From positions 2,499,926 to 2,563,925 of the forward strand of contig NZ_KK853997.1 of the NCBI RefSeq assembly GCF_000696185.1: a stretch of 64,000 bases of DNA, written 5' to 3'. Below are positions 3,568-30,296 of this stretch, piece after piece. Position 1 is the first letter of the stretch; every line of letters begins with the position of its first letter. The translations under genes and the position numbers were made by a program. The notes under the pieces were generated by a model. It saw only the letters and a list, made by a program, of their open reading frames with translations, had not been told where the DNA came from and did not search any database. Source of the DNA: Kitasatospora cheerisanensis KCTC 2395. Its GTDB lineage: Bacteria > Actinomycetota > Actinomycetes > Streptomycetales > Streptomycetaceae.

Positions 3568-4736
3568 CCCCATCCCAGTGGACCCGCCCCGATCAGGTCG
3601 TCGCGGCGCTGCGCCGCAAGTGGACCGCCGGCCAGTTCCTGACCGCGGCCGCGCAGCGCCTCCCCTTCGAGCCCATCAGCATCCCACTCAAGGGCCCAGC
3701 CGCGGCGGACGTCACACGGCACTACGGCCAGGCACTGGCGTGGTCAGAGTCCTGGGCAGCCGGCCGGCATCCCCACCTGCGGATCCAGACCAAGACCGTC
3801 GGAGGCCGTAACAACACCCCCGCGAACACCATCCCCGACCGCGCCTGGGTCGACACCCGCGAAGACCTCTGGGCGGTCCTCGACGTTAACGCACAGGTCG
3901 ACCTCTTCCACGCCCTCCACAGCGGCACTCTCCAGCAGGACCCGGACCTCGCCCAGTGGATGACCACTAACCCCATGAAGGCGCTCCAGGCCCACGCCCA
4001 ATGGCAGCAGCTCGTCGACACCGTGAGCTGGATCGGGAACCATGCCACTGGCCCGATCTACCTCCGGCAGGTCGACGTCCCCGGCGTCGACACCAAGTTC
4101 ATCGAGACCAACAAGGGCATCCTCGGTGAACTCCTCGACCACACCCTGCCAGCCGACCGCATCCACACCGGCGTCGCGAGAGGCGACTTCGCCGCACGCT
4201 ACGGCTTCCTCACCAAGCCGCCATACGTACGGCTGCGCTACCTCGGCAACCAGCCAGGCCCGTTCAGCGAAATCACCGTCCGCGCCAGCGAGCTCACCGC
4301 ACCGCCCTCAGGCGTTCACACCGTCTTCGTCCTCGAAAACGAAGTCACCTACCTGTCACTGCCCGATGTCCCCGGCGCGATCGCCATCCTCGGCTCCGGC
4401 TACGCCGCCGTCCTCCTGCGGTACCTGCCGTGGCTCGCCAACGTCGACCTCCGGTACTGGGGAGACATCGACACCCACGGCTTCGCCATCCTGAGCCAGG
4501 TCCGGCGCCACTTCCCTCACACCCGTTCGTTCCTCATGGACCGCAGTACCCTGCTGGACCACAAGGCGCACTGGGGCGAAGAGAAAACTCAGACGCCCGA
4601 GCAACCGGCTCACCTCACCCTCGACGAGGCTGAGGTGGAGCGGGATCTACGCCTGGGCACCTACAAACCGCACCTACGCCTGGAGCAGGAACGCATCCCC
4701 ATTCGGACAGTGTTGCGGGCTCTCGCTGGGTCGTGA
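3564..4736 (+). CDS. jetD: JetD, Toprim-type nuclease of Wadjet (DUF3322-DUF2220)
   Basis: The product is 390 aa, the usual JetD length. It begins at a GTG overlapping the jetC stop. The N-terminal half is DUF3322-like and the C-terminal half is DUF2220, a topoisomerase VI/Toprim fold. Expected metal-binding acidic residues are visible: Glu258/Glu260 in VLENEVTYL and the DxD of WGDIDTHGF (Asp301, Asp303). In known systems JetD cleaves plasmid DNA captured by JetABC. The operon ends here. The following 150 bp separate it from the convergent restriction-modification operon and contain no supportable gene. Confidence 0.93.
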   Translation: MTPSQWTRPDQVVAALRRKWTAGQFLTAAAQRLPFEPISIPLKGPAAADVTRHYGQALAWSESWAAGRHPHLRIQTKTVGGRNNTPANTIPDRAWVDTREDLWAVLDVNAQVDLFHALHSGTLQQDPDLAQWMTTNPMKALQAHAQWQQLVDTVSWIGNHATGPIYLRQVDVPGVDTKFIETNKGILGELLDHTLPADRIHTGVARGDFAARYGFLTKPPYVRLRYLGNQPGPFSEITVRASELTAPPSGVHTVFVLENEVTYLSLPDVPGAIAILGSGYAAVLLRYLPWLANVDLRYWGDIDTHGFAILSQVRRHFPHTRSFLMDRSTLLDHKAHWGEEKTQTPEQPAHLTLDEAEVERDLRLGTYKPHLRLEQERIPIRTVLRALAGS

Positions 4737-4886
4737 ACGTGATCCACTCTCGGCCTGGTGGACCCGCCTTGATGAGACCGACACGGCAGGCCACCGGGCC
4801 ACAATTGGCTCCACCCGGACCGGCCTGCCCTCAATGTGAACTAGCTGTCCGAGACATTGCCGTTCCGCTGGCTGGTTGGGCTAGCC

Positions 4887-5648
4887 CTAACTATCGGGTA
4901 GCCATAGGTGAGCGCCCACATCGGCGAGACGGGCGCGGCGAGCCTCATAGTCGGGCATGGCTCGCTCGACGACAGACCAAAAAGCGGCCGAATGGTCATG
5001 GTGCTGGAGATGTGCAAGCTCATGAACGAGCACGTAGTCAACCAAGGCAATCGGCAATTGCATCGTTGCCCAGTGGATATTCACGACGCCACGAGGAGAA
5101 CAGGATCCCCATCGGTAGCCGAGCCTACGGACCGTAAGCTCGGCTACCGGTACGCGGAGGCGCTGTGCCCACGGGGCAGCGCGTTCAGGCAACCAGGCTT
5201 GCCCATGGCTGCGATACCAGTCGATCAAATCGTCGGCAGCAAAGCTCCGCCGGTCACGCCGAACCTGAAACCGGCCATGCACCAACTGCACTGGCGCCGG
5301 CGCGGCTTCGACAAACCTGAGTCGGTAGCTCCGACCGAGGTACGTGAAACCCTCCCCAGTGGCGAATCTCTTCGCTGGCCGGTTGGCAACCGCGGCGGCC
5401 CGGTCCTCGAGCTTGGAGTAGATCCAACGACGGCGGCCCTTGACCAGCTCCGTCAGTTGGTCAGCGGCAAGGCCGGCTGGGACCGCCGCAGTGACGCGCG
5501 CGTCACGCTCGACGGTCAGTCGCACGCCCCGCCTCTCGGCGGAGACAACGACATTGATGTCAAGGCCGCCGATGTTCATCGGCCCTGACTCGAGCGGGGG
5601 TGTGTCACCCCTGCGGGCGGCAGCCCTACCGAGTGCGCTGGAGTTCAT
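4887..5648 (-). CDS. YgjP-like zinc metallopeptidase (DUF45/M48) attached to type I RM operon
   Basis: The product is up to 253 aa with the DUF45 fold. The zinc motif HELAH lies at residues 209-213, followed by the family HHDHSAAFW segment, and RRLGYRWGSCS precedes it, as in YgjP-like proteins. It is the last gene of the hsd operon. From the upstream ATG it overlaps the end of hsdR by 23 bp. A second ATG at 5579 (MNIGGLDINVV) would remove 23 residues and avoid overlap, and I cannot decide between them because neither has a strong ribosome site. YgjP-like proteases are often encoded beside type I restriction systems. A role in controlling or processing the restriction enzyme is inference. Confidence 0.85.
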   Translation of the reverse strand: MNSSALGRAAARRGDTPPLESGPMNIGGLDINVVVSAERRGVRLTVERDARVTAAVPAGLAADQLTELVKGRRRWIYSKLEDRAAAVANRPAKRFATGEGFTYLGRSYRLRFVEAAPAPVQLVHGRFQVRRDRRSFAADDLIDWYRSHGQAWLPERAAPWAQRLRVPVAELTVRRLGYRWGSCSPRGVVNIHWATMQLPIALVDYVLVHELAHLQHHDHSAAFWSVVERAMPDYEARRARLADVGAHLWLPDS

Positions 5649-8600
5649 GTCGACGGTGGCTCACGATCTCGAACAATTTGTCCGCAAGGTGCGCGGCGTG
5701 ATGAGACTCGCCAACCTCAGCAGTGACAAGGACACCGACAATGGCCTTCTGGAAATCGCTCCGCGCGACCTGGTTGTTCCAGAAGTTCTTCTTGCGGGTC
5801 CGGTCAAACGCGAGGCTCTCGATCTCCGTGACAACGCTGACGAAGTGGTCTCGGGTTGTATCCGGCACGATGCCATCAGTCAGGACCTCTTCCACAATGG
5901 CACCATACAGGGCCTGCTCCAGCTTGCTGAGCTTACCGAGAGTGGCGTCCTCACTGTTTGATCCATACTCGTGCACCTGGATGACCTCGTCCACGAGCGC
6001 CTGGAAGAGCAGAACTTGCTGCTCCCACTGTTCCGCATACTCCGCCAAGATCTGCTCCAGGCGTTCACGGAGCTTCCCGTACTCGGCGGGATCTTGGTTG
6101 AAGTAAACGTCGAGGTGATGGCGGATCGCGTGCTGCATCTCCGACGCCTGTGCCTTCGCCCCTGGCAGGGCCTGGACCTTCGGGGCGAAATCCTGTGCCG
6201 TGATCTCTGCCGGCGGTATCACCTGGGAGACGCCCAGCGCGATGACATGCCGGTCGATCAACTCGCGGACCTTCTCGCCGTACAGTGAGGGATCGAACTC
6301 CGCCATCTCCCGGTAGCGGGCCCTGGTCCACTTCGCTACCAGCGCGAAGAGTCGCACGTCCGCAAGGAACGGCTTGGCCTCGCTACGCGGCATCACCGTC
6401 TCCACTGCCATAAGGAACTTCCGGAGAGCGACCTCGAACTTGTCGCGCAGATCCTCATCAGCCAGGAGTTCCACGCATGCTTCGATCGAGAGCGGGTCGT
6501 CTGCGGGAGAGACTCCCCGGTCTGTGAAGAGCATCATGAGCCGGTTACGGCGCGGCTCCAACTTCGCGATCTCGACTGCGAAGTCGATGGGCTTACCCTC
6601 AGCGTCGTCGGCGCTGTACGCCTCCATCGCAGCCTGCAGATGCTTGGAGACCCCGGCATAGTCGACCACGAACCCACAGGCCTTGCGGTCGGCCACCCTG
6701 TTCACACGTGCCACCGCTTGGAGGAGCTCTGCCTCCTTGATCCGTCGGTCGAGGTACATCGCCTGCTCGATCGGAGCGTCGAATCCGGTCAGCAGCATCG
6801 TGCGCACGATAAGGAACGCGATCGGCTTGTCACTCTCAGAGGGACTCTCAGGGAAGGCCTTGCGGAATCGATCGATCGCAGCTTCCTGGCCTGCGCCATC
6901 CGTCCAAGTGGCGAGGTCCTCAGTGTCATTCTGACCCTCAGAGATCACAGGCACGAAGTCAATCGTCTTCAGCAGGTCCAGCTTGCGACGTGCCGCTACC
7001 TGCACGGCCTGGCGGCCCTTGAGCTCCTCCGGCGCCTTCTCAAGGAGTGCTTCCGAAAGCTTCTCCGCCTCAGCCACCAACTCCGCGCGAGCCGCGAGCA
7101 GGGCATCGCGATACCTGACTGCCACCCTCCGCGTGTGCGCAACCACTTGCGCCTTGAACCCGTTGGGCATCACTCCGGAGACATAGTGAGCCAGCATGTC
7201 TCGCGCCTTCTTGCGTACCAGGCTGTCTGCGGCCAGCACATCGCTGGTGGTCGCGTAGCGCTCCTGCAGCTGGTCGTACTCTTCGTCTGTGAGCTCCGGA
7301 AAGTACTGGGCGATCGCGTCTTCAAGATCTTCGGCCTCAGCGATAGCACCCTTGGCGATCCGGCCTTCGTAAACGATGGGGACGATCGCCCCGTCCTCCT
7401 CGGCTTCCTTCAGCCGGTACTTGTCGATGAACTGCCCGAAGATGTTGGTCGTGCGGTTCTTCTCCCGCATGATGATCGGCGTGCCAGTGAAACCGATCCG
7501 CGCCGCGTTCGGAAGTGACTCCATCAAGTTCTGGTGCAGCGCCGATCCCTGCGACCGGTGGGCCTCGTCCACCAGGATCAAGATCGACTCATCATCGTTG
7601 AGCAAGTCCCATCCAGGCGATCGATCATGCGCGAGAGTGTCCCCAGAAGCCTTCGCCTTGGCAGCGTCCACCTGCTTCTGGATCATCACGAAGACCATCC
7701 CAGGGCCCTTGCGGGAGAGCACCCCTGGTACGCCCTTGGAACGCTTGATCACATCGGGCTTCTCATCCGCCAGCTTCGCAGTCTCTGAGAGCTGCTTCTG
7801 CAGCTGCGTTCGATCAGTGATCAACACGACCTTGAAGTGACCAAGCCCAGGAGTGGACCGCATCTTACGCACCAGGAACACCATGGTCAGCGACTTCCCA
7901 GATCCCTGGGTGTGCCAGATGATCCCACCGCGCCTATCGCTATCGCCATCCTCGGCGAGAGTCTTGCCGCTGAGAAGACGCTCGACCGACTTGCACACGG
8001 CCCGGTACTGCTGGTAGCGGGGAGCGATCTTGACACGCCGGCTGCCACCGTTGTCCACGTCGACTTCCATGAACACCATGAAGTTCCGCGTGATGTCAAG
8101 CAATCGGTGGGGGTGCAGTACCCCGGCTGCGAGGACCTCCTGCTCCCTCAGCGCTGCCTCGCTCTTGCCCAGCATTGACGCAAGCTCTGACTTTGTGACC
8201 GGATAGGGGTCGCGCCAGACGGCATAGTGGCCAGGGCCAGAGGTGAACGTGCCCAGCAAAGCCTGATTCCCGCATGTCGCCACGGTGAGCTGCGCAGTGT
8301 GAAACAGTTTCTCATTGCCCTCGGGCATCACGGCGCCACGCTGATTAGAGTAGCGCCGCAACTGTTCGATCGCCTGGGCGGTCGACCCGCCATGGAACGT
8401 TGGCTTCTTGCACTCAATAACGACCAGCGGGATGCCGTTGACAAACAACACTATGTCCGGAACAACCGATTTCTTCCGGTTAGTGCCAGGCACGTAAAGC
8501 CGGAACTGTGAAATCGCAAGGAAGTCATTACGATTGGGGTCAGTGAAGTCAATAAACCTAACTCGTTGACCGCGGCCTCCTTCCCACCCCTCAATGCCGT

Positions 8601-8934
8601 CGACAACGGTTCCGTCCAACAGCACTTGAGTCGTCTCACTGTTCGCTTCAAGCAGTGAGGTCGCCCCAAGTCGGGTTAACGCGCCAATTGCCTGTCCGAT
8701 GCGCTCATCGTCCAGCCACTCGTTGCCCGCAGGGTCAAGGTTCAGCTTTCTCAGCTGCTTGCGCAGGATACCAAGGAGCAGGGGCTCAGAGAACGAGGAA
8801 CGAAGGGACGCATTCGGGTCCGTCGGCTCCATAGGCCCCGCCGGCCCTCCGCGCTGGTGCCGCCATCCCATCCCTTCAAGCTGCCCGATCAGCGGCGACT
8901 CGACCAGCACGAACTCGTATCCCGACTCCGACAT
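5626..8934 (-). CDS. hsdR: Type I restriction endonuclease R subunit
   Basis: HsdR translocates DNA and cuts unmodified DNA as part of the R2M2S complex. The 1102-aa protein is full length. The N-terminal PD-(D/E)xK nuclease is visible as PDIVLFVNG...VVIECKK (Asp160, Glu174, Lys176). The SF2 motor has Walker A HTQGSGKS (Lys347) and motif II LVDEAH (456-459). The helicase C-terminal part includes the LLTGFDAP and QAVARVNR segments. It lies 8 bp downstream of hsdS. Base composition is lower in GC than in the genes right of 13.5 kb, supporting horizontal acquisition with the rest of the operon. No disrupting change is seen, so the nuclease is probably active. Confidence 0.95.
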   Translation of the reverse strand: MSESGYEFVLVESPLIGQLEGMGWRHQRGGPAGPMEPTDPNASLRSSFSEPLLLGILRKQLRKLNLDPAGNEWLDDERIGQAIGALTRLGATSLLEANSETTQVLLDGTVVDGIEGWEGGRGQRVRFIDFTDPNRNDFLAISQFRLYVPGTNRKKSVVPDIVLFVNGIPLVVIECKKPTFHGGSTAQAIEQLRRYSNQRGAVMPEGNEKLFHTAQLTVATCGNQALLGTFTSGPGHYAVWRDPYPVTKSELASMLGKSEAALREQEVLAAGVLHPHRLLDITRNFMVFMEVDVDNGGSRRVKIAPRYQQYRAVCKSVERLLSGKTLAEDGDSDRRGGIIWHTQGSGKSLTMVFLVRKMRSTPGLGHFKVVLITDRTQLQKQLSETAKLADEKPDVIKRSKGVPGVLSRKGPGMVFVMIQKQVDAAKAKASGDTLAHDRSPGWDLLNDDESILILVDEAHRSQGSALHQNLMESLPNAARIGFTGTPIIMREKNRTTNIFGQFIDKYRLKEAEEDGAIVPIVYEGRIAKGAIAEAEDLEDAIAQYFPELTDEEYDQLQERYATTSDVLAADSLVRKKARDMLAHYVSGVMPNGFKAQVVAHTRRVAVRYRDALLAARAELVAEAEKLSEALLEKAPEELKGRQAVQVAARRKLDLLKTIDFVPVISEGQNDTEDLATWTDGAGQEAAIDRFRKAFPESPSESDKPIAFLIVRTMLLTGFDAPIEQAMYLDRRIKEAELLQAVARVNRVADRKACGFVVDYAGVSKHLQAAMEAYSADDAEGKPIDFAVEIAKLEPRRNRLMMLFTDRGVSPADDPLSIEACVELLADEDLRDKFEVALRKFLMAVETVMPRSEAKPFLADVRLFALVAKWTRARYREMAEFDPSLYGEKVRELIDRHVIALGVSQVIPPAEITAQDFAPKVQALPGAKAQASEMQHAIRHHLDVYFNQDPAEYGKLRERLEQILAEYAEQWEQQVLLFQALVDEVIQVHEYGSNSEDATLGKLSKLEQALYGAIVEEVLTDGIVPDTTRDHFVSVVTEIESLAFDRTRKKNFWNNQVARSDFQKAIVGVLVTAEVGESHHAAHLADKLFEIVSHRRHELQRTR

Positions 8935-8942
8935 AATTCCCC

Positions 8943-10163
8943 CTACTGGCAGGTCCCACCAGGCACGCGGACTCGCCCCACGAAAAGATCATCCATCAGG
9001 CCCTGCTTTATCCTACCGAGCTCCGCCAGGTGACGCTTCTCAACGTCAATCGAATCCTGCCATCCAATTAGCGATCGCTCCATCGCAATCTGCTCTTCTA
9101 GCGGCGGAGCGGAAAGCGGCAAGCTCCGCAATGTCTCAGATCGAATGGAGGACATAATTCCCCCTTGGACATCCTGACCGAGATGGTCCAGGACCCACGG
9201 CGCATAGTTGATCTGCATACACGCCAGCAGCGGCCGATAGCGCGCCGGATCGAGGCTAATCGTCCACGTGTGCTTCGACGACAGCGCTTGACCAATCCAC
9301 TCTGGAACCACGCAGCAGCGCCCAACCGTTCCCATGATTGTGATCATTAGGTCATTGGGGCGAACCTGATAGCGCCGGAGCTCACGAAACTTTTCAGCCG
9401 TTACGAACCTTGTGAAATCGCCAACAAACCGTTCGACCTGAACGTTGTCAATCCCCAAGAGTGGAGTTCCAGACTCCACCAGATCCTCTTTGAGTAGGGA
9501 GCTGCCAAACGGACCGCTGCGCATAGCCGGGTCCACATCGGCCAAGAGTTCGTTGATGCGCCGCACAGGCCAGCGTTCAGGGGAAAGAAGTTCAAGCATT
9601 GTGCTGATGCGCAGCTGCTCAAGTTTGGCAACTAGTTTGCGAGTCCCGGCGATTTGCCGGTCGATCGAGTCGATGATGTCCGCAATCCGCTGCTGCTCGA
9701 AGATCGACGGAACGCCAATTCGATAGTCCGCCACAAGCTTCGTTTCAAGTCGACCGGTCCCATGGCTGGCCTCATCGACCAGCTTCAAGATGTCCGGCTC
9801 GGCTGCTTTCACAGCCCATCCGAGGTAGCGCGGATCAATCCCTTCATGTGGAATCAGCGCTTTGCAGTCTTGACCGAATGCGACAGTCCTGCCTGTAACT
9901 CCGACTCGAAGTTCTGACTTGAGACTCATTCCACGTACAACGAAAATGGTCGTTCCCGGCGGTACTAGTCGAGTACCGCTGCGAGCGCCAAGCTCGGTCA
10001 ACCGCCGGGCTGAATCCTCGATATTGAAGTCCTTTAGGCTCGCTGCACTGATCCATGGGATACTTCCATCCCAGTAAGCTGGATCATCTGTTGAGGGGGT
10101 CCCTCCGGACATCCACTCGGCAACGTCGCCAAGCCGTCTTGTGGGCCATTCTTGCTCACGCAT
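8943..10163 (-). CDS. hsdS: Type I RM specificity subunit
   Basis: The product is 406 aa from the ATG at 10163, which overlaps the last codons of hsdM by 8 bp (ATGCGTGA). I prefer this start to an in-frame one 20 codons upstream because [21 protein letters not shown] is the usual HsdS N-terminus. Two target-recognition domains are seen: residues about 7-180, with [15 protein letters not shown], and about 210-390, with the second block opening [12 protein letters not shown]. Each is followed by a helical spacer ([17 protein letters not shown] and [17 protein letters not shown]). The recognition sequence cannot be read from the protein. This is the AT-richest, most atypical gene of the operon, as expected for the fast-evolving S subunit. 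Confidence 0.93.
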
Positions 10164-12606
10164 AGCCGAGCTCCTCAAGGTACTCAGAAAGCTGCGCTGC
10201 GGCAGCGGCTCGCTGAGCCTCAAGATCTGCCAAAGTTACCGCATACTTGTCGCCCCAAGTTCTGTAGGCGTCGATGAGAGATCGGCGGCCGGCAAGCAAG
10301 AACCGAGTCAAGCGAGTGTGCAGGTCCTCACTGAGGAACTGGAGAACATAATTACGGGTCTCGACATCAGAAAGCATGTCAGCGGCACACTTCAGCTCAG
10401 CAACAAAGGTCGCGCGAAGTTCCTTTACGTTTGCCTTGGCTTGTTTGAGTTCGGCTTTAAGTCGACGCAGCTCCGCCGGACTCAGCACCTCCTCGGCATC
10501 GTCGCTCTCTTCCTCACCGTCGTCCGCTGACTTCTTGGCAGTCGCAGCCTTGATGCGTACGTCCAGCTCTGCGGCTCGCAGCTCTGAGCTCTCCAGAGCC
10601 TCGACATAGGAGGGGATTAGGACAGGCACCAGGCGGTGATCTCGGGCACGCCGCTGATCGCTGCGAAGCCGGGTGAGGGTCTTTGCGTCAGCATCTTCAG
10701 GCTCATCGAAGGCCGACTCAATGTTAGCCACCCACCGGTCGACCACGGCACGGAACCCATTAGCAGACAGACTCTTCAAGTCATGCTGTGAGTCGTACCA
10801 CCATGCAGCCACAGCACCAGCGAGTTGATGCCGATCTAGGACGCCGAGAGGTTCGAGCGCTGAGACAAAGGAATCCAAGAGCTCCTCTCGGGTATTCGTG
10901 AGCTTCTTGGTGAGCGGGAGTTCGACGAGTCGGTATTCGTGCTTTGCCCACCATGTTTCGTAGGCATCAGCAACCTCACGCTCGCGCTCGGCCACCAATT
11001 CTGGGATACGGGCAGCAGCAGCCTCGTAACCGTCAGCCGGGAACGCGTAGTAGTCACTACCCATCTCGACAAAGAGCGTCGATGGATCGAGACCGTATGC
11101 CGCGAACTGTTCGATCTTCGCAGCAACCTCCGACATCGGCACACCGCCATGCAGGTGCGCACGCACATCCTGCGGCTCGGAAGGCGGAGTATTGTCGACG
11201 TAGCGACGAATGTTGAGGTTGAAGTCATTCTTCTCCAGCTCTGCCAGTGACACCACTCGGGCGAATCCCGGGATATCACGACGCTCCTGGAAAGCAGCAA
11301 CAATCTTCTCTGCGTGCTGCGGGTCAAGGTAGTTCTGCGCTCGACCGGGAGTGAACTCCCTGTCAGCATTGATGAATAGGACCCCGTTACGCTGACCCTC
11401 TGGAACCCCATTCGATCCGCGTACAACTAGGATGCATGCCGGGATGCCAGTTCCGTAGAAGAGGTTAGGGGGCAGGCCGATCACAGCATCAAGGCGGTTC
11501 TCCTCGATGAAGCCTCGGCGGATCTTCTTCTCCTCGCCGCCACGAAATAGCACTCCATGTGGCATAACCGAGGCGCCAATTCCGTCAGGTTCCAGGACGG
11601 CAAGAACGTGCTGGATGAACATCAGGTCGGCCTTTTTTCCTGACTCCGGACACCAGCCGTACTTCATCCGCTCCTGGTGCACCATCCCCTTACGCGCGTA
11701 GTTCAGCGAGAATGGCGGGTTGGTCAGCACCCGGTCAAACCGGATGAGTTCACCGTCCTGCTCATGTGCGGGAGCAGAGAGAGTGTCATCGTTACGCAGA
11801 TCAGCGTCGGCGATCCCATGAAGGATCATGTTCATCTTCGCCATCGCCCAGACTCCGCCGTTGTACTCCTGCCCGGCGAGATCAAGCGTGGCGGCGTCAT
11901 GTCCATGATCTTCGACGTACTCCTTGGCAAGGATCAGCATGCCGCCCGATCCACAGCAAGGGTCATAAACCGACATCTCTTCGTCCGGTTTGACCAGGCG
12001 TACCATCATGCGCACCACAGCCCGGGGGGTGTAGAACTCGCCGCCCTTCTTGCCGGCCGAGTCTGCAAACTCTCCGATCAAGTACTCGTATGCGTGCCCA
12101 AGCAGGTCCGGGAACTCGAAGTCTTCATTTCGCAGTCGGTAACGGCCGAAGTGGTCGACAAGCTGCTGGAGCTTGACGTTACTCAACGATGCTTGGCCGA
12201 CCTTGCGGCTGAAGTCGATGTGCTCCAGGACGTCGTCCAGTGCCGGACTGTTCGCTTCCGAGAGCGCACCCATCGCCACGTTCAGGGTCTCGGCAACCTT
12301 CACATCCGAGTTGCGAGACCTGTCGACGATCGTGCGCCAGCGCGCTTCCTCAGGCACGTAGAACTGACCGCGCGCATAGTGGTGAGGCATCTCTGCGTTC
12401 TTCTCGGCGGCCTCCGGCGGCTTGCCCGCCTTCAGCTGGTCAGCGATGACCCGTTCACGCAGCTCGTCGAACTGATCCGAGGCACGCTTCAGGAACAGCA
12501 TGCCAAAGATGTACTCCTTGAACTCGGAGGCATCCATCTTTCCTCGAAGGATGTCCGCCGCCGCGTACAGGTGCCGTTCCAACTGGGGCAGGGTCAGCCT
12601 TGCCAC
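10156..12606 (-). CDS. hsdM: Type I RM DNA adenine methyltransferase (M subunit), C-terminally extended
   Basis: This is the first gene of the hsd operon, encoding 816 aa. The HsdM N-terminal helical domain (residues 1-170) is followed by the N6-adenine methyltransferase core, with [14 protein letters not shown], the AdoMet motif DPCCGSGG (215-222) and the catalytic NPPF (296-299). Typical HsdM proteins are about 500-550 aa. Here a further 250-300 residues follow the catalytic core, rich in Lys, Glu and Arg, with an acidic [12 protein letters not shown] patch and predicted coiled coil. With HsdS it methylates the recognition site and protects host DNA. Confidence 0.94.
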
Positions 12607-21236: not shown

Positions 21237-24107
21237 ATGGGGGCGGACACACCGCTGCACAGGACCGGGGGGCCGGTGCCGGTCGACGACGTGCCGACCG
21301 CGGACGGCACGTTGGTGGAGGTGGCGCGGGCGGCCGTGGCCGGCAGCAGGGCCCGGGGAGGCGACGGCGACTGGACGGTCGCGGTCGAGGGCTTCTGGTG
21401 CACGGTCCGGCCGCCCGGCCGCGAACTGCCCGAGCAGGGCTGGAAGCTGCACGTCGCCGCAGCCTCCACGGTGGCCTGCGAGGTGCTGGCCGCGGTCGCC
21501 GCGGTGCTCGCCGCGGATCCGTGCGCGTTCAAGTTCGCCGCCGACCGGGAACGCCTGCACGAAATCAATTCCCGCAACAGCGAACGGGGTTCGGCCGGGA
21601 AATTCATCACCGTCTATCCGGACGGCGACGAACAATTCCTCCGGCTCGCCGAGGAACTCCACCGCGCCACCGCCGGAATGCCCGGGCCGGCGATTCTCTC
21701 CGACCGCCCGTACCGTCCCGGCAGCCTGGTGCACTACCGGTACGGCGCGTTCGCCGGCCGCGCGCTGCTGGGGCACGACGGCGCGTACCGCTCGATGCTG
21801 CGCGGCCCGGACGGCGAACTGGTCGAGGACGTCCGCGCGGCCACCTACCGCCGCCCGCCGTGGGCGGTCGACCCCGTCGAGGGGACGGGATCGGCCGCCG
21901 GCACCGGGCAGGTACCGGCGCAGCCCGGGCCGGAGGCCCGGCGGCCGGCCGGGGTGCTGCTGGACGGCCGCTGGGCGCTCACCGCCGCACTGCGGCACAG
22001 CGCCAAGGGCGGCGTGTTCCTGGGCACCGAGCCGGCCACCGGCGCCGAGGTGGTGGTCAAGCAGGCCCGGGCGCACATCGAGGTCGACCGGGCCGGCACC
22101 GACGCCCGCGACGCGCTCCGGCACGAGGCCGAGCTGCTCGGCCGACTGGCCGACAGCGGCTTGACACCGCGGGTGCACGCCCTGGTCGAGCAGCAGGACT
22201 CGCTCTTCCTGGTGCAGGAGCGCGTCCCCGGGCAGTCGCTGGGCAGTTGGGTGGCCGCCCGGCTGCGCCGGGACGGCACCCCGGACGTGCCGTGGGCCGA
22301 GGCCGGCCCGATGGCGCTGGCGCTGCTCGACCTGGTGGCGGGCGTCCACCGGCGCGGCCTGGTGCTGCGCGACCTCTCCCCCGGCAACGTGCTGGTCGGC
22401 CCGGACGGCGCCGTGCGCCTGGTCGACCTCGAACTCGCCGTCCCCGCCGGGACGGTGGCCGGGAACGCCGGCACCCCCGGGTACCGCGCCCCCGAGCACT
22501 CCGGCCCGCACCGCACCGGCGTCGCCGACCCCGGCGCCGACCTGTACGCGCTCGGCGGCCTGCTCTTCCTGCTCGCCACCGGCCACGACCCGCTGCTCCC
22601 GGACGACCTGCCGTCGGCCCGCCCGGTCGCCGACCGCCTCGGCCGCTGGCTGTCGCTGGCCGCCCGCGACGGCCTGACCGCCCGCCGGCTGGCCGCGCCG
22701 GTGCTCGGACTGCGCGCCGAGCGGGCCGGGCACCGGTGGAGCCTGGACCGCGTCCGGGCGGAGCTCACCGGCACCCCCGGGCCGGCCCCGCAGCCCGCCG
22801 GCCCGCCGCCGCTGGACCGGCTGCTGCACGACGGACTGCTCCACCTCGCGGCCACCGCCGCCCCGGAGCGGCGCGACCGGCTGTGGCCGACCGTCCCGGC
22901 CGGGCAGCTCACCGACCCGTGCAACGTGCAGCACGGCGCGGCCGGCGTGCTGGCCCTGCTCGCCCGGGCGAGCCTCGCCCCGCTGCCCGAGGCCGCCCGC
23001 AGCCGGGCCCGGGCCACCGCCGCGACGGCCGCCGACTGGATCGAACGGCGCTGCGCCGCCGAGCCCGTGGTGCTGCCCGGCCTGCACTTCGGCCGCTCCG
23101 GCACCGCCTGGGCGCTGTTCGACGCGGCCGAGGCGCTCGACGACCCCGGCCTCGCCGAACGGGCCGCCGGGCTGGCCGCGAAGGTCCCGCTCGGCTGGCC
23201 CAACCCGGACGTCTGCCACGGCGCCGCCGGCGCCGGCCTCCTCCAGTTGCGTGCCCACCGCGCCACCGGGGCGCGCCTGTTCCTCGACCGCGCCGCGCAC
23301 TGCGCCCGCACCCTGCTGGCCGCCGCCCGCACCGAGCCGTACGGGACGGTGTGGCCGGTGCCCGCGGACTTCGACTCGGCGCTCGCCGGGGCGGTGCACC
23401 TCGGCCACGCGCACGGCGTGGCCGGAGTGGGCGCCTTCCTGCTGGCCTGCGCCGACCGCATGACCGACACCGGCGACGCCGAACTCTTCGGCCCGGCGCG
23501 GGAGTTGCTGGCCGGTGCGGAGCGCGCCGCGCAGACCCTGGCCGCGACCGCGCGGTGGGACGGCGAGGCGGCGTGGTGGCCGCAGAGCCACGGCGACCCG
23601 GCGCACGTCCGGCTGGCGCACTGGTGCAGCGGCTCGTCCGGCGTCGGCGCCTTCCTGGTGCGGTTCTGGCAGGCCACCGGCGACGAGAAGGCCCGCCGGC
23701 TGGCGCGGGCCGCCGGGCAGGCCGTGCTGAACGGCCGCTGGCACAGCGGGGTCTCCGCCTGCCACGGGCTGGCCGGCAACGGCGAGTACCTGCTCGACCT
23801 GGCCCGGGCCACCGGCGAGAGCCGCTTCGAGGACGGCGCGCACGAACTCGCCGCGCTGATCGCCGCCCGCGCCGCCCTGCGGGACGGGCTGCTGGTCCTC
23901 CCCGACGAGACCGGCACCGCCGGCACTCCCGCGTACGGCACCGGCACCGCCGGGCCGCTCGCCTTCCTGCTCCGCCTGCGGCACGGCGGCCCCCGGCTCT
24001 GGTCCGACCCCGAGCCGTACCGCGCCACGCCGCCCTCCCGGAGCGGCCCTCAACTGCCTTCCTCTGCCAGCCCGTTGCCCGCCCGACCCGCAGGAGGCCC
24101 CCGATGA
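21237..24107 (+). CDS. lanL: Class IV-like lanthipeptide synthetase (lyase-kinase-cyclase)
   Basis: The enzyme is about 956 aa (residue numbers below count from an alternative GTG at 21228). The phosphothreonine-lyase domain (to about 215) has GWKLHVAAAS, FKFAADRERL, GKFITVYP and GSLVHYRYGAF. The Ser/Thr kinase domain (about 245-520) has Lys278, catalytic LRDLSPGN (Asp382) and DFG-equivalent VDLEL (Asp400). The LanC-like cyclase (about 555-959) has CNVQHGAAG, WCSGSSGVG (Cys800) and ACHGLAGNG (Cys845, His846). The Cys/Cys-His zinc triad is the mark of class IV LanL and is missing from class III LanKC. The enzyme should phosphorylate and eliminate Ser/Thr of the precursor and close thioether rings. 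The ATG at 21237 is 10 nt from AAGGGG. Its stop overlaps the peptidase start (ATGA). Confidence 0.9.
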   Translation: MGADTPLHRTGGPVPVDDVPTADGTLVEVARAAVAGSRARGGDGDWTVAVEGFWCTVRPPGRELPEQGWKLHVAAASTVACEVLAAVAAVLAADPCAFKFAADRERLHEINSRNSERGSAGKFITVYPDGDEQFLRLAEELHRATAGMPGPAILSDRPYRPGSLVHYRYGAFAGRALLGHDGAYRSMLRGPDGELVEDVRAATYRRPPWAVDPVEGTGSAAGTGQVPAQPGPEARRPAGVLLDGRWALTAALRHSAKGGVFLGTEPATGAEVVVKQARAHIEVDRAGTDARDALRHEAELLGRLADSGLTPRVHALVEQQDSLFLVQERVPGQSLGSWVAARLRRDGTPDVPWAEAGPMALALLDLVAGVHRRGLVLRDLSPGNVLVGPDGAVRLVDLELAVPAGTVAGNAGTPGYRAPEHSGPHRTGVADPGADLYALGGLLFLLATGHDPLLPDDLPSARPVADRLGRWLSLAARDGLTARRLAAPVLGLRAERAGHRWSLDRVRAELTGTPGPAPQPAGPPPLDRLLHDGLLHLAATAAPERRDRLWPTVPAGQLTDPCNVQHGAAGVLALLARASLAPLPEAARSRARATAATAADWIERRCAAEPVVLPGLHFGRSGTAWALFDAAEALDDPGLAERAAGLAAKVPLGWPNPDVCHGAAGAGLLQLRAHRATGARLFLDRAAHCARTLLAAARTEPYGTVWPVPADFDSALAGAVHLGHAHGVAGVGAFLLACADRMTDTGDAELFGPARELLAGAERAAQTLAATARWDGEAAWWPQSHGDPAHVRLAHWCSGSSGVGAFLVRFWQATGDEKARRLARAAGQAVLNGRWHSGVSACHGLAGNGEYLLDLARATGESRFEDGAHELAALIAARAALRDGLLVLPDETGTAGTPAYGTGTAGPLAFLLRLRHGGPRLWSDPEPYRATPPSRSGPQLPSSASPLPARPAGGPR

Positions 24108-26053
24108 GCACGGCGACCGTGCGTACCTCGCCGCAGGCGTTGCGGCGGCTGAGTTTCACCTTCTCCGGGGACGGCTCGCACGCCGCCTGCCTGGCCGCGG
24201 GGGCCGACGGCGGCTGGTACGTGGAGAGTTGGCGGCTGCCCGAGCACGGCGCGGCGGAGCCGGTGGCGCTGCCGCTTCCGGACGGGCGGGCGGAGAGCCT
24301 GCGTTCGCAACTGGTGGCACTGCCGGACGGGCGGGTGCTGGTGTGCCGGCACGACGGCGACCGGCACGCGGTGGTGCTGCTGACCGCCGGGGAGCCCGGC
24401 CGGCCCGCGGCCGAACTCCCGTTGACGGCGGTGCGGTTGCCGGGCCTGCGGATGCTGCCGATGCCCGGCCCGGCGGGCGCGGCGGACGCCCCGGTGGCGG
24501 TGTTGCTGGGCACCGACACCCGCCCGGTGACCACGGTGCGGCTGCTGGCGGCGGACGGCTCCGAGCCGCGCGAGGTGGCCGAACTGCCGGGGCTGTACGG
24601 CGGCGGGGTCTGGCTGGAGCGGACCGGGCGGCTGCTGGCGCTGGACCGGGTGGCCGGCGGGACGGTGAAGACCGTCGTGCTGGACCTCCGACTCGGCACC
24701 ACCACCCCGCTGTTGGAGCTCGGCGAGGCCAGCAACGACCGGCTGGTGCTGTTCGACCCGGCGACCGGCTTCGGGATGCTGCGCAGCGACGCGCCGGGCG
24801 CCGACCGGCTGGGCTGGGCGCTGATCGGCGGCAGCGAGCCGGTGCGCTTCCCGGACTGCCTGCACCAGCCGGGCCGGCTGCTGCGGCCGATCGCGCTGGC
24901 CCCGCAGGAGCCGGGCGCGGAGCCGCGGGTGGTGCTCCAGGTGGACCACGGCGCGGCGTCCTCGCTGGTGCTGTGGCACCCGGGCAGCGGGCGGCTCGAC
25001 CCGCTGCCGGTGCCGCCGGGCCGGCTGGGCGCGATCGGGCACTGGTCGCCCGCGGGCCTGCGGATGCCGTACTCGGCGCCGGACCGTCCGGCCGCGCTCG
25101 CCACCGTGGACATCGACGCGCTGCTGACGGCACGTCCGGCTCCGGCGGCCGCCCCCGTGCCGCTCCCGCTGTCGCTGGCTCCGCTCAACGGCCTTCCGCC
25201 GCAGCAGGGTTCGGCACCGGCCGGCTGGCGGCTGGACGGTTCGACCCCGCCCGGGGACGGCGGCCGGTGGCGGCCCGCGCAGTGCCTGGAGCTGGCCGGG
25301 CCGACCGGTCCGGTCGAGGCGGTGGTGTACGGCGGCGAGCAGTGGCTGTCCGCCCCGCACCTGGTGCTGGCGCTGCACGGCGGCCCGGCGGACGCCTGGC
25401 GGCTGGAGTTCGACCCGGCGCTGCAGCGGATGGCCTCGGAGGGCCTGGCGGTGCTGGCCCCGAACCAGCGCGGTTCGACGGGCTACGGCACGGAGTTCGC
25501 GATGGCGATCCGCGGCGCGTGGGGCGGGCCCGACCTGGATGACGTCCTGGCGCTGCTGACGGGTGTGGCCGGGCAGCGGGCCGCCCTGGGGCTGGAGCCG
25601 CCGGCCCTGTTCGGCGTCAGCTACGGCGCGTTCCTGGCGCTGCTGGCGGCGGCGCACGCCCCGGTCGGGGCGGTGTCGCGGTGCGCGGTGGTGGCGCCGT
25701 TCCTGTCCGGCGGCCGGCTGCTGGCGGAGGCCTCGGCCCCGGTGCGGGCGCTGACCGGCCGGCTCGGCGGCGACCGTCCGATCGAGGACGACCGCGGCCC
25801 GCGGGACGTCCTGCAGCTCGCCGACCGGCTGCGCACCCCGCTGCTGATCCTGCACGGGGACCGCGACGAGGTGGTGCCGGTCGGTCAGTCCCGGTCGCTG
25901 CGGCACGAGTTGCTGCGGCTGGGCCGCAGCGAGGGGACGGACTTCCGCTACGTGGAGGCCGCGGGGGCGGGCCACGAGGTGCTCGCCGAGGAGGGCGCGG
26001 CGGTGCTGCACGAGCTGCTCGCGGGCTTCCTGCGCACCGGCAGACCGGCCTGA
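24104..26053 (+). CDS. S9 prolyl-oligopeptidase-family serine peptidase, candidate leader peptidase
   Basis: The product is 649 aa starting at an ATG that overlaps the lanL stop and follows CAGGAGG. Residues 1-350 have repeated beta-strand patterns of a propeller. The C-terminal alpha/beta-hydrolase domain carries the triad Ser506 (FGVSYGAF), Asp588 (HGDRDEVVP) and His624 (GAGHEVL), with ALHGGP forming the oxyanion region near residue 425. No signal peptide is seen, so it should be cytoplasmic. Prolyl-oligopeptidase homologues FlaP and AplP trim class III lanthipeptide leaders. By position this enzyme probably cleaves the leader of the 47-aa precursor, which contains a Pro at residue 18. Pairing with a zinc-bearing LanL is less usual. 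Confidence 0.88.
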   Translation: MSTATVRTSPQALRRLSFTFSGDGSHAACLAAGADGGWYVESWRLPEHGAAEPVALPLPDGRAESLRSQLVALPDGRVLVCRHDGDRHAVVLLTAGEPGRPAAELPLTAVRLPGLRMLPMPGPAGAADAPVAVLLGTDTRPVTTVRLLAADGSEPREVAELPGLYGGGVWLERTGRLLALDRVAGGTVKTVVLDLRLGTTTPLLELGEASNDRLVLFDPATGFGMLRSDAPGADRLGWALIGGSEPVRFPDCLHQPGRLLRPIALAPQEPGAEPRVVLQVDHGAASSLVLWHPGSGRLDPLPVPPGRLGAIGHWSPAGLRMPYSAPDRPAALATVDIDALLTARPAPAAAPVPLPLSLAPLNGLPPQQGSAPAGWRLDGSTPPGDGGRWRPAQCLELAGPTGPVEAVVYGGEQWLSAPHLVLALHGGPADAWRLEFDPALQRMASEGLAVLAPNQRGSTGYGTEFAMAIRGAWGGPDLDDVLALLTGVAGQRAALGLEPPALFGVSYGAFLALLAAAHAPVGAVSRCAVVAPFLSGGRLLAEASAPVRALTGRLGGDRPIEDDRGPRDVLQLADRLRTPLLILHGDRDEVVPVGQSRSLRHELLRLGRSEGTDFRYVEAAGAGHEVLAEEGAAVLHELLAGFLRTGRPA

Positions 26054-26230
26054 CGGCAGCTGCCCCACCGGCCGGCGGCCCGACTCCGCCCCCGGCCGCT
26101 GCGTGACGCGCGCCCGCGCCGACGGGCCGTCATGCCGGATCGACACGCCTTCACAAGACTTCCCGCCGCGCGCGGGAGCCCGCCGGCCTGCCCGGCTGCG
26201 GCCCGGAGCGCGCGCGGCGGGGCCCGACCT

Positions 26231-26284
26231 GCGACGGGAAAACGCTTTCCGTCGCAGCCGTCGGACACGTCCGTGCCCGACGGA
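26231..26284. promoter_or_regulatory. Two consecutive inverted repeats upstream of lanA
   Basis: The first repeat pairs GCGACGG (26231-26237) with CCGTCGC (26249-26255), flanking AAA/TTT. The second pairs CCGTCGG (about 26260) with CCGACGG (about 26278). They lie 22-75 bp upstream of the lanA start inside a 253-bp gap after the peptidase gene. They could be an operator, an attenuator limiting read-through, or an RNA element raising lanA expression. Sequence alone cannot decide. Confidence 0.35.
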
Positions 26285-26306
26285 AACCGATAGGGGAGGA
26301 AACACC

Positions 26307-26450
26307 ATGGAGAACATGACCGCGTTCGAGACCGACCTCGCGGCCCTGCAGGAGCTGCCGGAGCTGGAGTCGGTCGAGCTGGGCGGCCACGGCAGCGGGT
26401 GCCAGTTCACCTGTCTGCTGCTGACCTGCCTGATCTTCACCCTCAGCTGA
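26307..26450 (+). CDS. lanA: Lanthipeptide precursor peptide
   Basis: The product is 47 aa. The start ATG is 7 nt behind a strong GGGGAGGA site. The leader (about 1-29) is acidic and contains LAALQELPELES, the short amphipathic helix motif recognised by class III/IV synthetases, then a Gly-rich GGHG junction. The core, SGCQFTCLLLTCLIFTLS, has three Cys (32, 36, 41) and five Ser/Thr (Ser30, Thr35, Thr40, Thr45, Ser47) in a very hydrophobic context. Ser30-Cys36 and Thr35-Cys41 both have five intervening residues and could form overlapping thioether rings, but ring topology is only a guess. It lies between the peptidase and two exporters, the layout of SapB-like (ram/amf) clusters. Confidence 0.88.
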   Translation: MENMTAFETDLAALQELPELESVELGGHGSGCQFTCLLLTCLIFTLS

Positions 26451-26563
26451 CGCCGGGGCACTCGCCCGGGCCGTGGCCGCTCCCGTTCGCGGGGGCGGGC
26501 ACGGCCCGCGCCCCGGCCTCGGCCCGTCCGGATCTCTTCCCTTCATCTGCCTGGAGTTGTCTC

Positions 26564-28225
26564 GTGCGAGGCTGGTCGGTCGCGCTGACGGTGTCGGTAC
26601 CACTGGAAGCCGCGGCGACACTGGCCCTGCCCGGGGCATCGGGGGCGGTCCTGGACGCGGTACTGGCGGGGCGTCCGTCAGGGTGGGCGATCGCCGGACT
26701 GGCGGCCCTGCTGGTGCTCGGTGCGGCCGCGGCGGCACTGGCTTCGGCGGCCGGTCCGGCCTGCTCGGCGGCGGACACGGTCGACCTGCGGGTCGGCCTG
26801 CTGCGCCGGGTGCTGTGGCTGCGGCCGTTCCCTTCGGCGGCGGAGCGGCCGGCCGGCGAGCGGCCCGGGGCGGGCGATCTGACGGCCCGTCTGGTCGGCG
26901 CGGCGGCGGACGCGGGCGCGGCGCGAGCGGCCCGGCTGGGGGCGGCGACCGCGCTGGTGACCTCGGCGGGCGCGGTGCTGGGCCTGGGGCTGCTGTCGCC
27001 GTGGCTGGCGGCGGCGTTCTTCGCCGGGGTGCTGCCCGGGGTGGTGCTGGTGCGCCTGTTCATGCGCACCGCGGAGGACGTCTTCGAGCGCTACCAGGCG
27101 GCGCAGGGCCGGCTCGCCGACCGGCTGTCGGACGCGCTGGCCGGCATCCGGACGGTGCACGCGGCGGGCGCGCAACGGCAGGAGGCGGCCCGGGTCCTGG
27201 CCGTGCTGCCCGAACTCGGCGACGCCGGACGGTCGTTGTGGCAGGCGCAGCGCCGGACGGTCGGCCGGGCGACGCTGCTGATCGCGGCCGTGGAGCTGAC
27301 GGTGCTGGGCACGGCGGGCCAGCTGGTGGCGGCCGGGGAGCTGCCCGCCGGGGCGTTCGCCGCGGCGGCGGGGTGGGCGGCGCTGGGGCTCGGCTTCTTC
27401 GAGCAGGTGGAGGCCCTGGTCGGGGTGGCCCACGCACGGGCCGGGCTGTCCCGGGTCCGGCAGTTGGAGCTGTGGCCGACCGCGACTGCGGGCGGCCGTG
27501 AACTTCCGGACGGGCCGGGTGAGTTGGCCTTCCGTTCGGTACTGGTACGGGACGCCGAGGGGGCGGTGGTGTTCGGCCCGCTGGACCTGACCGTCCCGGC
27601 CGGCGCAACCCTCGCCGTGGTGGGACGGTCCGGCGCGGGCAAGTCCCTGCTGGCCGCGCTGGCGGGCGGGCTCCGGCTGCCGGACAGCGGAGCGGTCCTG
27701 GTCGACGGCGTGCCCGTGGCCGCACTCTCGGTCGCGGAGCGGAGACGGGCGGTCGGCTACGCGTTCGAACGGCCGTGGCTGGTCGGCCCGACGCTGGACG
27801 AGGCGCTGGAGGGCGCCGGGCCCGCCGCGATGTCCGCCGCGCGGGCCGACGGCTTCCTGGCCCGGCTCCCCCTGGCGGGACGCACTCCAGTGAGCGAACT
27901 CCGGTTGTCTGGGGGCGAGTTGCAGCGCCTCGGCCTGGCCCGACTGCTGGCCGCCGACTCCCGGGTGGTGATCACCGACGACGCGACCTCCCACCTCGAC
28001 CTGGCCACCGAACACCAGGTCACCCAGGCCCTGGACACCGCCACCCGGGGCCGCACCCGCGTCGTCGTCACCCACCGTGCCGCCGTCGCCGCCCGCGCCG
28101 ACCTCGTCGCCTGGCTCGACGCCGGCCGCCTCCGCGCCACCGGCCCCCACACCACCCTCCTCGCCGACCCGGCCTACCGCGCCGTCCTGACCGGCACGAC
28201 GGCGGGGCAGGACGCGAGGAGCTGA
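26564..28225 (+). CDS. ABC exporter half-transporter 1 of lanthipeptide cluster
   Basis: The product is about 553 aa from a GTG preceded by GGAG with 7-nt spacing. An N-terminal membrane domain of about six segments (to about 320) is followed by an ATPase domain with Walker A GRSGAGKS, signature LSGGE and Walker B VVITDDATSHLD, plus the switch His in VVTHRA. The residue after the Walker B aspartate is Asp instead of the usual catalytic Glu, which normally weakens hydrolysis at that site. No C39 peptidase domain is present, so leader removal must be separate. With the next gene it resembles the RamA/RamB pair that exports SapB. Confidence 0.87.
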   Translation: MRGWSVALTVSVPLEAAATLALPGASGAVLDAVLAGRPSGWAIAGLAALLVLGAAAAALASAAGPACSAADTVDLRVGLLRRVLWLRPFPSAAERPAGERPGAGDLTARLVGAAADAGAARAARLGAATALVTSAGAVLGLGLLSPWLAAAFFAGVLPGVVLVRLFMRTAEDVFERYQAAQGRLADRLSDALAGIRTVHAAGAQRQEAARVLAVLPELGDAGRSLWQAQRRTVGRATLLIAAVELTVLGTAGQLVAAGELPAGAFAAAAGWAALGLGFFEQVEALVGVAHARAGLSRVRQLELWPTATAGGRELPDGPGELAFRSVLVRDAEGAVVFGPLDLTVPAGATLAVVGRSGAGKSLLAALAGGLRLPDSGAVLVDGVPVAALSVAERRRAVGYAFERPWLVGPTLDEALEGAGPAAMSAARADGFLARLPLAGRTPVSELRLSGGELQRLGLARLLAADSRVVITDDATSHLDLATEHQVTQALDTATRGRTRVVVTHRAAVAARADLVAWLDAGRLRATGPHTTLLADPAYRAVLTGTTAGQDARS

Positions 28226-28473
28226 GGCCGCCCGGGGTGGGGCCAATCACGGCCCCCGGAGGGTCAGTTGGCGCGGCGGGCTGCCCGTACCCCAGAGAAT
28301 GGGCGCTGCCGTCGAGTCGGCCGCCGCGGGCCGCTGACGGAGCGTCGGTGACGGTGCGCCGGTGGGCGGCTGTCGGCAGGAGCACCGGACACACCGCGTG
28401 CCGGCACCGCTCCGCCGTCCTCACGGCACGCGCCATGGACAAGCAGCATCGACTATCGGAGGGGAGCGTTGCC

Positions 28474-30296
28474 GTGGGGCGGCATCGGAGGGCGGTGGCC
28501 GGGCAGGCCGTGCGGGGGCTGGTGGAGGTGGCACCGCGGGCGGCGCTGTGGCGGCTGGCGGGGTGGTCCGCGGTGGAGGCGGTGCCGGCGTTGTGTTCGG
28601 GGCTGCTGGTGGCAGCGGCGGCGGACCGCGGGTTTCTGGCGGGGCGGCCGTGGGTCGGGTTCGGGTGGCTGGCGGGGCTGGGGGCGGTGACGGCGCTGCG
28701 GGCGGTCGCGGCGCGGGCGGTGTTCCCGCATCTCGCGGAGGTGGTCGAGCCGCTGCGGGACGCGCTGGTGGCGCGGGTGGTGCGGGGTGCGCTCGCCCGG
28801 CCGGATCCGGACGGTCCGGCGGAGATCGCCCGGATCACCGAACAGGTCGAGTCTGCCCGGCAGTTGACGGCGACGCTGCTGCGCAGTGCGCGGGGTGTCG
28901 GGGTGGGCCTGCTGGCCGCGCTGGTCGGGTTGGGGCTGCTCGCGCCGGTGGTCCTGCCGCTGGTGCTGCTGCCGCTGCTGGTCTCGGGGGTGCTGTTCGC
29001 GCGCCTGCTGGGGCCGCTGGTGGCGCGCCGCCGGGCGGTGGTGCTGGCGGACGAGCGGATCGCCGCGGAGGCGGGCCGGGCGTTCGCGGGACTGCGGGAC
29101 GTGGCGGCGTGCGGGCGCAGCAGCGGGTGGCGGAGCGGCTGGAGGCGCTGGTCACGGCCCAGGGCGAGGCGTTGCGGGCGGTGGGCCGGGCGGCGGCGGC
29201 CCGTTCGTCGACGGTGGCGGTGGGCGGGCGGCTGCCGCTGCTGGTGGTGGTGTGCGCGGCGCCGTGGCTGGTCGCCGACGGGTGGCTGTCGGCCGGTGAG
29301 GTGCTGGGCGTGGCGACCTACCTGTTGCAGCAACTGGAGCCGGCGGTGCGGACCTTGGCGGGCATGCTGGGCAGTTGGCTGCTCGATCTGGCCGTGGTGC
29401 TGGAGCGCCTCTCGTCCTCCACTCCACCGCACCCTCTCGCGGCGCCGGACACGTCGGTCCCACTCCCGTTGGCGGACGGCTCGTTGACCGTCCGTTCGCT
29501 GCGGTACGCGCACGCGCCGGGCGCCGATCCCGTCCTGGACGGGCTGGAGTTCACGGTGCCTCCGGGCGGGCGGCTGGCGGTGGTGGGGCCGAGCGGGACG
29601 GGGAAGTCGACGCTGGCGGCGCTGCTGGCCGGGATGCTGGCGCCGGACCGCGGTCACGTGCTGGTGGGCGGCGTGGAGTTGGCGAGGGTTCCGGGCGCCG
29701 GGCGGGCGTCCCGGCTGGCGCTGGTGCCGCAGGAGGCGTACGTGTTCGCCGGGTCGGTCCGGGAGAACCTGCGCTGGCCGTCCGGCGAGCAGTCGGACCG
29801 GGAACTCGCCGACGCGGCGGAGAAGTTGGGAGCCGCCGGGCTGCTGGCCCGGCTGGGCGGGCCGGACGGCCGGATCGCCTCGCCGGCCGCGCTGTCCGCC
29901 GGTGAGCGTCAACTGCTGGCGCTGGTACGGACGTTCGTCTCGCCCGCGCCGGTCGTCGTGCTGGACGAGGCGACCTGCCATCTGGACGCGGCGGCGGAGC
30001 GGCGTGCGGAGGAGGCGTTCGCGGAGCGGCCGGGGACGCTGGTGGTGGTGGCGCACCGGCTCGGGTCCGCGGTGCGGGCCGATCGGGTGCTGCTGCTGGA
30101 CGGCGGCCGGGGCGTTCTCGCGGGGCACGGCGATCTGCAGGTGATCTCGCCGCTGTACCGGGAACTGGTCGGCCACTGGCGGGCGTCGATCGGGGTGGGC
30201 GGGCCGGCCGCCATGTCGGGGCCGGGGAGCGGGCGGCGTGAGAGCGGCGGGCGTGTGGCGGGCCGGGTTTCCGGGGCGCGACGCGCAGCGGTTTGA
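28474..30296 (+). CDS. ABC exporter half-transporter 2 of lanthipeptide cluster, split by an apparent frameshift
   Basis: The start is a GTG 7 nt behind GGAGGGGAG. The membrane domain begins in one frame (AVRGLVEVAPRAALWRLAGW...FAGLRDVAACG) and continues in another from about 29118 (AQQRVAERLEALVTAQGE...). The switch occurs in a GCGGGCGCAGCAGCG tract. The remainder includes Walker A GPSGTGKST, Q-loop VPQEAYVF, signature LSAGERQLL and canonical Walker B VVVLDEATCHLD. The two exporters probably form a heterodimer in which this subunit supplies the proper catalytic Glu and the first supplies the canonical LSGGE. The split is most likely a one-base sequence error, since both parts are conserved. 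Confidence 0.83.

Follow-up and report, generated by a model that had tools for sequence, protein, structure and literature searches.

The window analyzed here, i.e. a stretch of 64,000 nucleotides from Kitasatospora cheerisanensis KCTC 2395, carries at positions 21237–30296 a lanthipeptide locus that, taken as a whole, is probably a class IV (VenA-family) cluster, with a product of three abutting rings that each have Cys at the N-terminal side, export by an ABC pair, and an S9 peptidase that is not dedicated to the precursor. The genes of the locus are all on the + strand and are in the order LanL synthetase, S9 peptidase, precursor, transporter A and transporter B. Loci of this kind occur in 39 genomes from three genera, and the Cys and Thr positions of the precursor are conserved among them, which is more than chance would give.

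The class, domain content, family, conservation, gene loss and frameshift described below are read directly from the sequences. New among these are the conserved core pattern, the erosion of the locus with retention of the S9 gene, and the frameshift in transporter B. Within the limit of the open PMC literature, no paper was found on the window core or on such a loss of the cluster in Kitasatospora. The available part of PMC9576775 counts four class IV products characterized by 2022, and that of PMC11117518 describes K. setae as having a pair of class IV regions, of which one is termed 100% similar to SflA.

Synthetase and class assignment

The LanL sequence at positions 21237–24107 (+ strand) encodes a single protein that displays RamC_N/lyase, Ser/Thr kinase and LanC-like cyclase domains (PF25816, PF00069 and PF05147). 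On the class IV model NF038150 (cut-off 650) its score is 1057 bits, and on the class III model NF038151 it is 464 bits, which is under the cut-off of 575. The zinc ligands Cys, Cys and His are at positions 800, 845 and 846 when counted from a GTG at 21228, which is the numbering used in the first-pass annotation and is correct, or at 797, 842 and 843 when counted from the ATG at 21237. The same ligand set is found in 119 of 124 aligned synthetases and is missing from the two LanKC-like proteins of the window's genome (L077 and L078). Membership in class III (LanKC) was considered and rejected on the presence of these ligands and on the NF038151 score.

In a tree of 74 synthetases the window LanL falls within a Kitasatospora clade of 16 sequences (SH-aLRT 100), which itself lies inside LanL; the tree omits 19 of 80 named loci as near-copies, adds 8 of 40 further family loci, and is rooted by the two LanKC-like sequences of the window's own genome, with long branches at the root. 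Thus the phylogeny proposed earlier as a check places the enzyme within LanL, and the class IV reading made from the zinc ligands is backed by both the curated models and the tree. Its sequence, then, shows the synthetase to be a class IV LanL of the ordinary kind. The locus had been described as mixing class III, class IV and SapB-like features. This description does not stand, as LanL passes the class IV cut-off and not the class III one, and the combination of LanL, S9 peptidase, precursor and ABC pair, as read in these genomes, is a recurrent class IV layout across Actinomycetota. The parts are therefore not drawn from three systems.

Two further LanL proteins of the same genome (L075 and L076) score over the class IV cut-off; in L075 a Cys is aligned in place of the His zinc ligand. 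No precursor was found for either of the two. At the left end of the window, positions 142–12606 hold a defence island. This consists of Wadjet JetC and JetD at 142–4736 (+ strand) and of type I restriction-modification HsdR, HsdS and HsdM with a YgjP-like protein at 4890–12606 (− strand). The G+C content goes down to 58% at 8–12 kb of the window, and JetA and JetB would lie to the left of it.

Precursor and predicted rings

The precursor gene at positions 26307–26450 (+ strand) encodes a 47 amino acid peptide that scores 42.8 bits on the VenA family model NF038147 (curated cut-off 35). The predicted leader encompasses residues 1–31. The predicted core starts at Cys32 (nt positions 26400–26447, + strand) and reads C-QF-T-C-LLL-T-C-LIF-T-LS. 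A hydrophobic core with three Cys had been quoted at first pass and is read identically from this open reading frame. It had also been said to match no lanthipeptide, which is true of the exact core and not of the precursor, given its VenA-family score. An inverted repeat with 9-base arms and an 11-base loop is located between the peptidase gene and the precursor at positions 26229–26257 (+ strand). A similar hairpin precedes the precursors of some relatives, e.g. L044 and L045, with changed bases in both arms. As the sequence varies, a conserved operator upstream of the precursor was rejected.

The 39 loci, which come from three genera, share the conserved core pattern C-x2-T-C-x3-T-C-x3-T and contain 20 distinct cores. 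C1, T4, C5 and T9 are present in all 20, and C10 and T14 in 19; the exception, L051, is ended by a stop codon. The residues at the core end are variable (S, A, N, G, C), and the intervening ones are for the most part L, I, V or F. More distant precursors from S9-bearing loci follow the same grammar, i.e. CTWTCTWTCSIT in Glycomyces and CGWLITCGITCGDATCDVTCDIT in Acrocarpospora, and in some (L115, L116, L117 and L140) the tandem pattern is absent. The LanL-S9 locus of Acrocarpospora catenulata (L090) has three different precursors approximately 1.8–2.3 kb past the LanL stop codon, with up to five C-x2-4-S/T units.

Offsets of Ser and Thr from Cys were counted in 23 cores, of which 20 are from S9-bearing loci outside the Kitasatospora and venezuelin types and three are representatives; none was excluded for its spacing. 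Ser or Thr is at position +3 in 54 of 85 cases (31.3 in shuffled cores) and at position −1 in 50 of 65 (23.0 in shuffled cores), and in neither case were any of 2000 shuffles as high, kinship among the cores being ignored. Positions −3 (18/62) and −4 (9/62) show no excess over shuffles in these cores. The excess three residues after Cys predicts abutting rings with Cys N-terminal. A venezuelin-type control recovers +4 and +5, which are the known rings Cys45-Dha49 and Cys34-Dhb39, but also the non-ring offsets −2 and −6, thus the offset test alone is no proof of topology. Twelve precursors of S9-less, non-venezuelin loci gave no offset enrichment in the shuffle test.

By inspection, if the three Cys and three Thr are all paired and neighbours are excluded, at least two rings have Cys N-terminal, and under the same assumptions the sole non-overlapping pairing is CxxT, CxxxT and CxxxT. 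A boundary argument, based on absence of Ser/Thr ahead of the first Cys, was tried and fails. In 7 of 13 distinct stretches there is a Ser or Thr within eight residues upstream of the first core Cys, which counts against the model since a canonical ring is possible there.

From these sequences we infer modification, ring pattern, export, leader removal and bioactivity as follows. LanL would bind the ALQxLPE leader, then phosphorylate the threonines conserved in the core and carry out the elimination; each Cys would be joined by the zinc cyclase of LanL to the dehydrobutyrine that lies downstream by three or four residues. The outcome would be three methyllanthionine rings that abut without overlap and have Cys on the N-terminal side (Cys32-Thr35, Cys36-Thr40 and Cys41-Thr45). 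The peptide would be exported by the ABC pair, and the S9 peptidase may help to trim the leader, though it is not dedicated to the precursor. The product is most likely a hydrophobic peptide in which three small rings are each closed from a Cys on the N-terminal side; the prediction of activity ends at hydrophobicity, from which the surfactant-like or membrane-active product guessed at first pass would also draw its support.

The venezuelin system of Streptomyces venezuelae (VenA/VenL/VenT/VenH) is similar to the window in its LanL, its match to the VenA-family model and its LanL-LanA-transporter layout. Most venezuelin rings have Cys N-terminal, as predicted here, i.e. Cys34-Dhb39, Cys45-Dha49 and Cys32-Dhb43 in the available part of PMC2843593. 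Unlike the window, venezuelin as described there has four Cys, four overlapping rings including a canonical one (Cys50-Dhb31), and a protease-free cluster. The window core, with three Cys in C-x2-T-C-x3-T-C-x3-T, does not have the four-Cys spacing, and an S9 gene is found between LanL and the precursor. SflA of Streptomyces sp. NRRL S-1022, which is compared by description only, is a class IV product with two non-overlapping rings and in these respects is like the window prediction.

The same class IV cluster could instead produce overlapping rings or one canonical ring (e.g. Thr35-Cys41), with some Cys free or in a disulfide. The venezuelin rings and the upstream Ser/Thr in 7 of 13 stretches are consistent with this; however under canonical pairing there is no sensible partner for the invariant Thr45 and Cys32, the −3 and −4 offsets are not enriched, and the upstream Ser/Thr is missing in the other 6 of 13 stretches, so that we regard this outcome as unlikely. 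SapB (ram/amf) has a class III synthetase and an SxxSxxxC core. A SapB-like morphogenetic surfactant produced by a hybrid of classes III and IV would fit the hydrophobic core and the two related ABC half-transporters, which display 42–44% identity to the exporter pair at the genome's own SapB-type locus (L077, near 7.91 Mb). It is nevertheless highly improbable, as LanL passes the class IV and fails the class III cut-off, L077 already holds a SapB/AmfS-type precursor along with a LanKC-like enzyme and its own ABC pair, and no precursor of the window type was detected in 38 of the 70 Kitasatospora species. The window core, read directly, also lacks the SxxSxxxC motif given for SapB in the available part of PMC7268733. 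On the class models, zinc ligands and core together, a SapB/class III reading was rejected. The likeness to ram/amf noted at first pass is real for the exporter pair but does not extend to the core, and the SapB-type precursor of this genome is a separate one. The three abutting rings remain the preferred prediction.

Exporters, S9 peptidase and erosion of the locus

Both exporters noted after the precursor at first pass are present, each as an ABC half-transporter (PF00664, PF00005). Transporter A is at positions 26564–28225 (+ strand, 553 aa), and a domain search found no C39 peptidase domain in it. Transporter B (28474–30296, + strand) is not the single open reading frame 28362–30296 that had been assumed. 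The membrane part extends from 28474 to approximately 29115, where the frame changes, and the ATPase part continues in another frame to 30296. Relatives, e.g. L063, L068 and L071, are continuous at this site. The frameshift is either a real mutation or an assembly error; indel errors in the assembly are hinted at by L076, whose match is likewise split between two frames. Relocation of exporters elsewhere in the genome was considered for eight genomes without transporter A at the locus and rejected, the best match being at most 47% identical, and two genomes giving none at 1e-30.

The S9 gene (24104–26053, + strand) overlaps the LanL stop codon with its start codon by 4 bases. It encodes a beta-propeller and an alpha/beta hydrolase domain (PF00326) and is acylaminoacyl-peptidase-like. 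The triad S506, D588 and H624 is invariant in all 12 sequences aligned. The closest solved relatives by sequence in the PDB are an S9 peptidase and, mainly, acylamino-acid-releasing enzymes. An AlphaFold2 model of moderate confidence (mean pLDDT 69) consists of propeller and hydrolase, and its fold matches are acylaminoacyl peptidases, puromycin hydrolase and S9C-like proteins. VIA-align gives full-length S9 entries a Z of about 17.6–20 with an rmsd of 4.5–5.3 over 512–548 residues, and single-domain esterases score as high.

Among 70 Kitasatospora genomes the precursor is detected in 32, whereas the S9 gene is found in 69 and is thus not confined to substrate-bearing genomes. The flanking NIF3 gene is also found in 69, with the miss in the same genome (G211) that lacks S9. 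The site was fetched for 37 of the 38 precursor-less genomes. S9 is present in all 37, with the triad intact in 36 of 36 readable cases and one more interrupted by a contig end. In eight precursor-less genomes the site had been expected to be empty; S9 was found in all eight and the conclusion on S9 was changed by this result. The median pairwise dN/dS of the peptidase half is 0.25 in precursor-less and 0.20 in precursor-bearing genomes, the pairs not being independent. A pattern search at the 37 sites found no precursor-like peptide; diverged precursors missed by model and patterns could be present.

LanL at the 37 sites is anything from full length to absent. A frame of more than 800 aa is still open in 14 genomes, and of these three have lost the kinase Asp and two have an altered zinc set, vs 0 of 30 precursor-bearing genomes. 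The LanL median pairwise dN/dS is 0.51 in precursor-less and 0.41 in precursor-bearing genomes. L164, L170, L183, L187, L188 and L196, all precursor-less, have a partial LanL, some with the lyase-kinase half only (residues 1–510). Of the 32 precursor-bearing loci, 21 have both exporters (including the window with its broken B), seven have neither, one has B only, and three have the region cut by contig ends. The closest relatives of the window, L066 and L067, are among the seven without exporters and have intact precursors. On all these counts, the exporters tend to be lost first, then the precursor and LanL, and S9 last.

S9 outlives the precursor, the exporters and LanL in many Kitasatospora, which argues that it is not dedicated to the leader. 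It probably serves some other function, and whether or not it does so, it may also trim the leader of this precursor. An S9 enzyme serving as a dedicated leader peptidase, similar to the class III prolyl oligopeptidases FlaP and LanPB, is favored by the overlap of its gene with LanL, by S9 adjoining LanL in 33 of the best 80 named LanL loci, with 19 of the 33 from families other than Streptomycetaceae, by the C39 domain not found in exporter A, and by the FlaP precedent of an S9 gene beside a lanthipeptide synthetase, together with a statement on class IV in the available part of PMC10885120. Unlike FlaP and LanPB, the window enzyme is acylaminoacyl-peptidase-like and is kept without a precursor across Kitasatospora at the dN/dS given above, and among solved proteins it is closest to acylaminoacyl peptidases and puromycin hydrolase. 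The precursors of S9 loci L101 and L106 have leaders without proline, thus strict cleavage after Pro cannot be general. An exclusive role for S9 as the leader peptidase of this peptide is therefore doubtful and, on balance, unlikely. The peptidase recognized at first pass stands as an S9 fold with an aligned triad; the leader-processing role implied for it is weakened. In the available part of PMC10885120 the SflA cluster is peptidase-free and its leader is cut by an AplP-like enzyme encoded elsewhere, thus a non-dedicated peptidase would not be odd. There is some chance, though short of an even one, that the window copy is already inactive, since transporter B is broken, L066 and L067 (probably K. 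sp. CB01950 and K. griseola) are without both exporter genes, and exporters are lost, fragments aside, in all 37 fetched precursor-less genomes. However the genes for precursor, LanL and S9 are all intact and stay under constraint even without exporters (dN/dS among the window, L066 and L067 of 0.24–0.27 for S9 and 0.39–0.41 for LanL), and the frameshift may stem from assembly error.

Distribution beyond Kitasatospora and significance

The VenA model matches 53 of 394 Streptomycetaceae genomes, i.e. 14 in genome group g10 and 39 in groups g1, g2 and g5, where by inference g10 is Streptomyces, g1 Kitasatospora and g2 Yinghuangia. All 38 fetched loci outside g10 have LanL and S9; two examined g10 loci have a LanL (42% identity) and are missing S9. 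In a scan of named genomes, in which the best 80 of 410 LanL relatives were kept, S9 is beside LanL on the same strand in 33 of the best 80; of these cases 14 fall within Streptomycetaceae and 19 outside it. The latter include Planobispora, Herbidospora, Kribbella, Actinomadura, Amycolatopsis, Saccharopolyspora, Glycomyces and Micromonospora. On the tree of 74 synthetases, S9 presence takes at least 9 changes vs 24 when shuffled. The S9-less Streptomyces venezuelin clade has as its sister a lineage, with Actinomadura and Saccharopolyspora, in which a venezuelin-type precursor occurs along with S9.

Of 388 Streptomycetaceae genomes, 372 have a match to the S9 profile. Among the matches listed, those of Streptomyces and group g7 mostly cover model positions ~3–380, i.e. 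the propeller. In all 20 genomes checked, an S9-profile match is at most ~6 kb from NIF3. Of 16 NIF3-side loci fetched, five have the full protein and 11 the propeller part only, and 10 of these 11 show a PLQQAP, LQQAP or PLQKAP stretch near the end. The propeller-only relatives (L197–L204 and L210–L212, from Streptomyces and other Streptomycetaceae genera) have no peptidase domain. On synteny and homology the propeller gene is counted as the same gene, and from its sequence it looks like the S9 gene minus the catalytic domain.

More broadly, these loci may represent a class IV family that consists solely of abutting reverse-methyllanthionine rings (C-x2-3-T, three to five in succession) and is encoded beside S9 across Actinomycetota, whose cluster is being dismantled in Streptomycetaceae to leave an S9 peptidase with a second substrate in Kitasatospora and a conserved propeller without catalytic domain in Streptomyces. 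We advance this tentatively, at close to an even chance.

The core spacing nearly forces ring direction, and the locus thus offers a clean test of LanL control of direction. The 37 natural genomes in which the precursor is lost and the peptidase kept call into question the assignment of leader peptidases from gene neighborhood alone. The locus also brings out a conserved propeller gene of Streptomyces that is unstudied.
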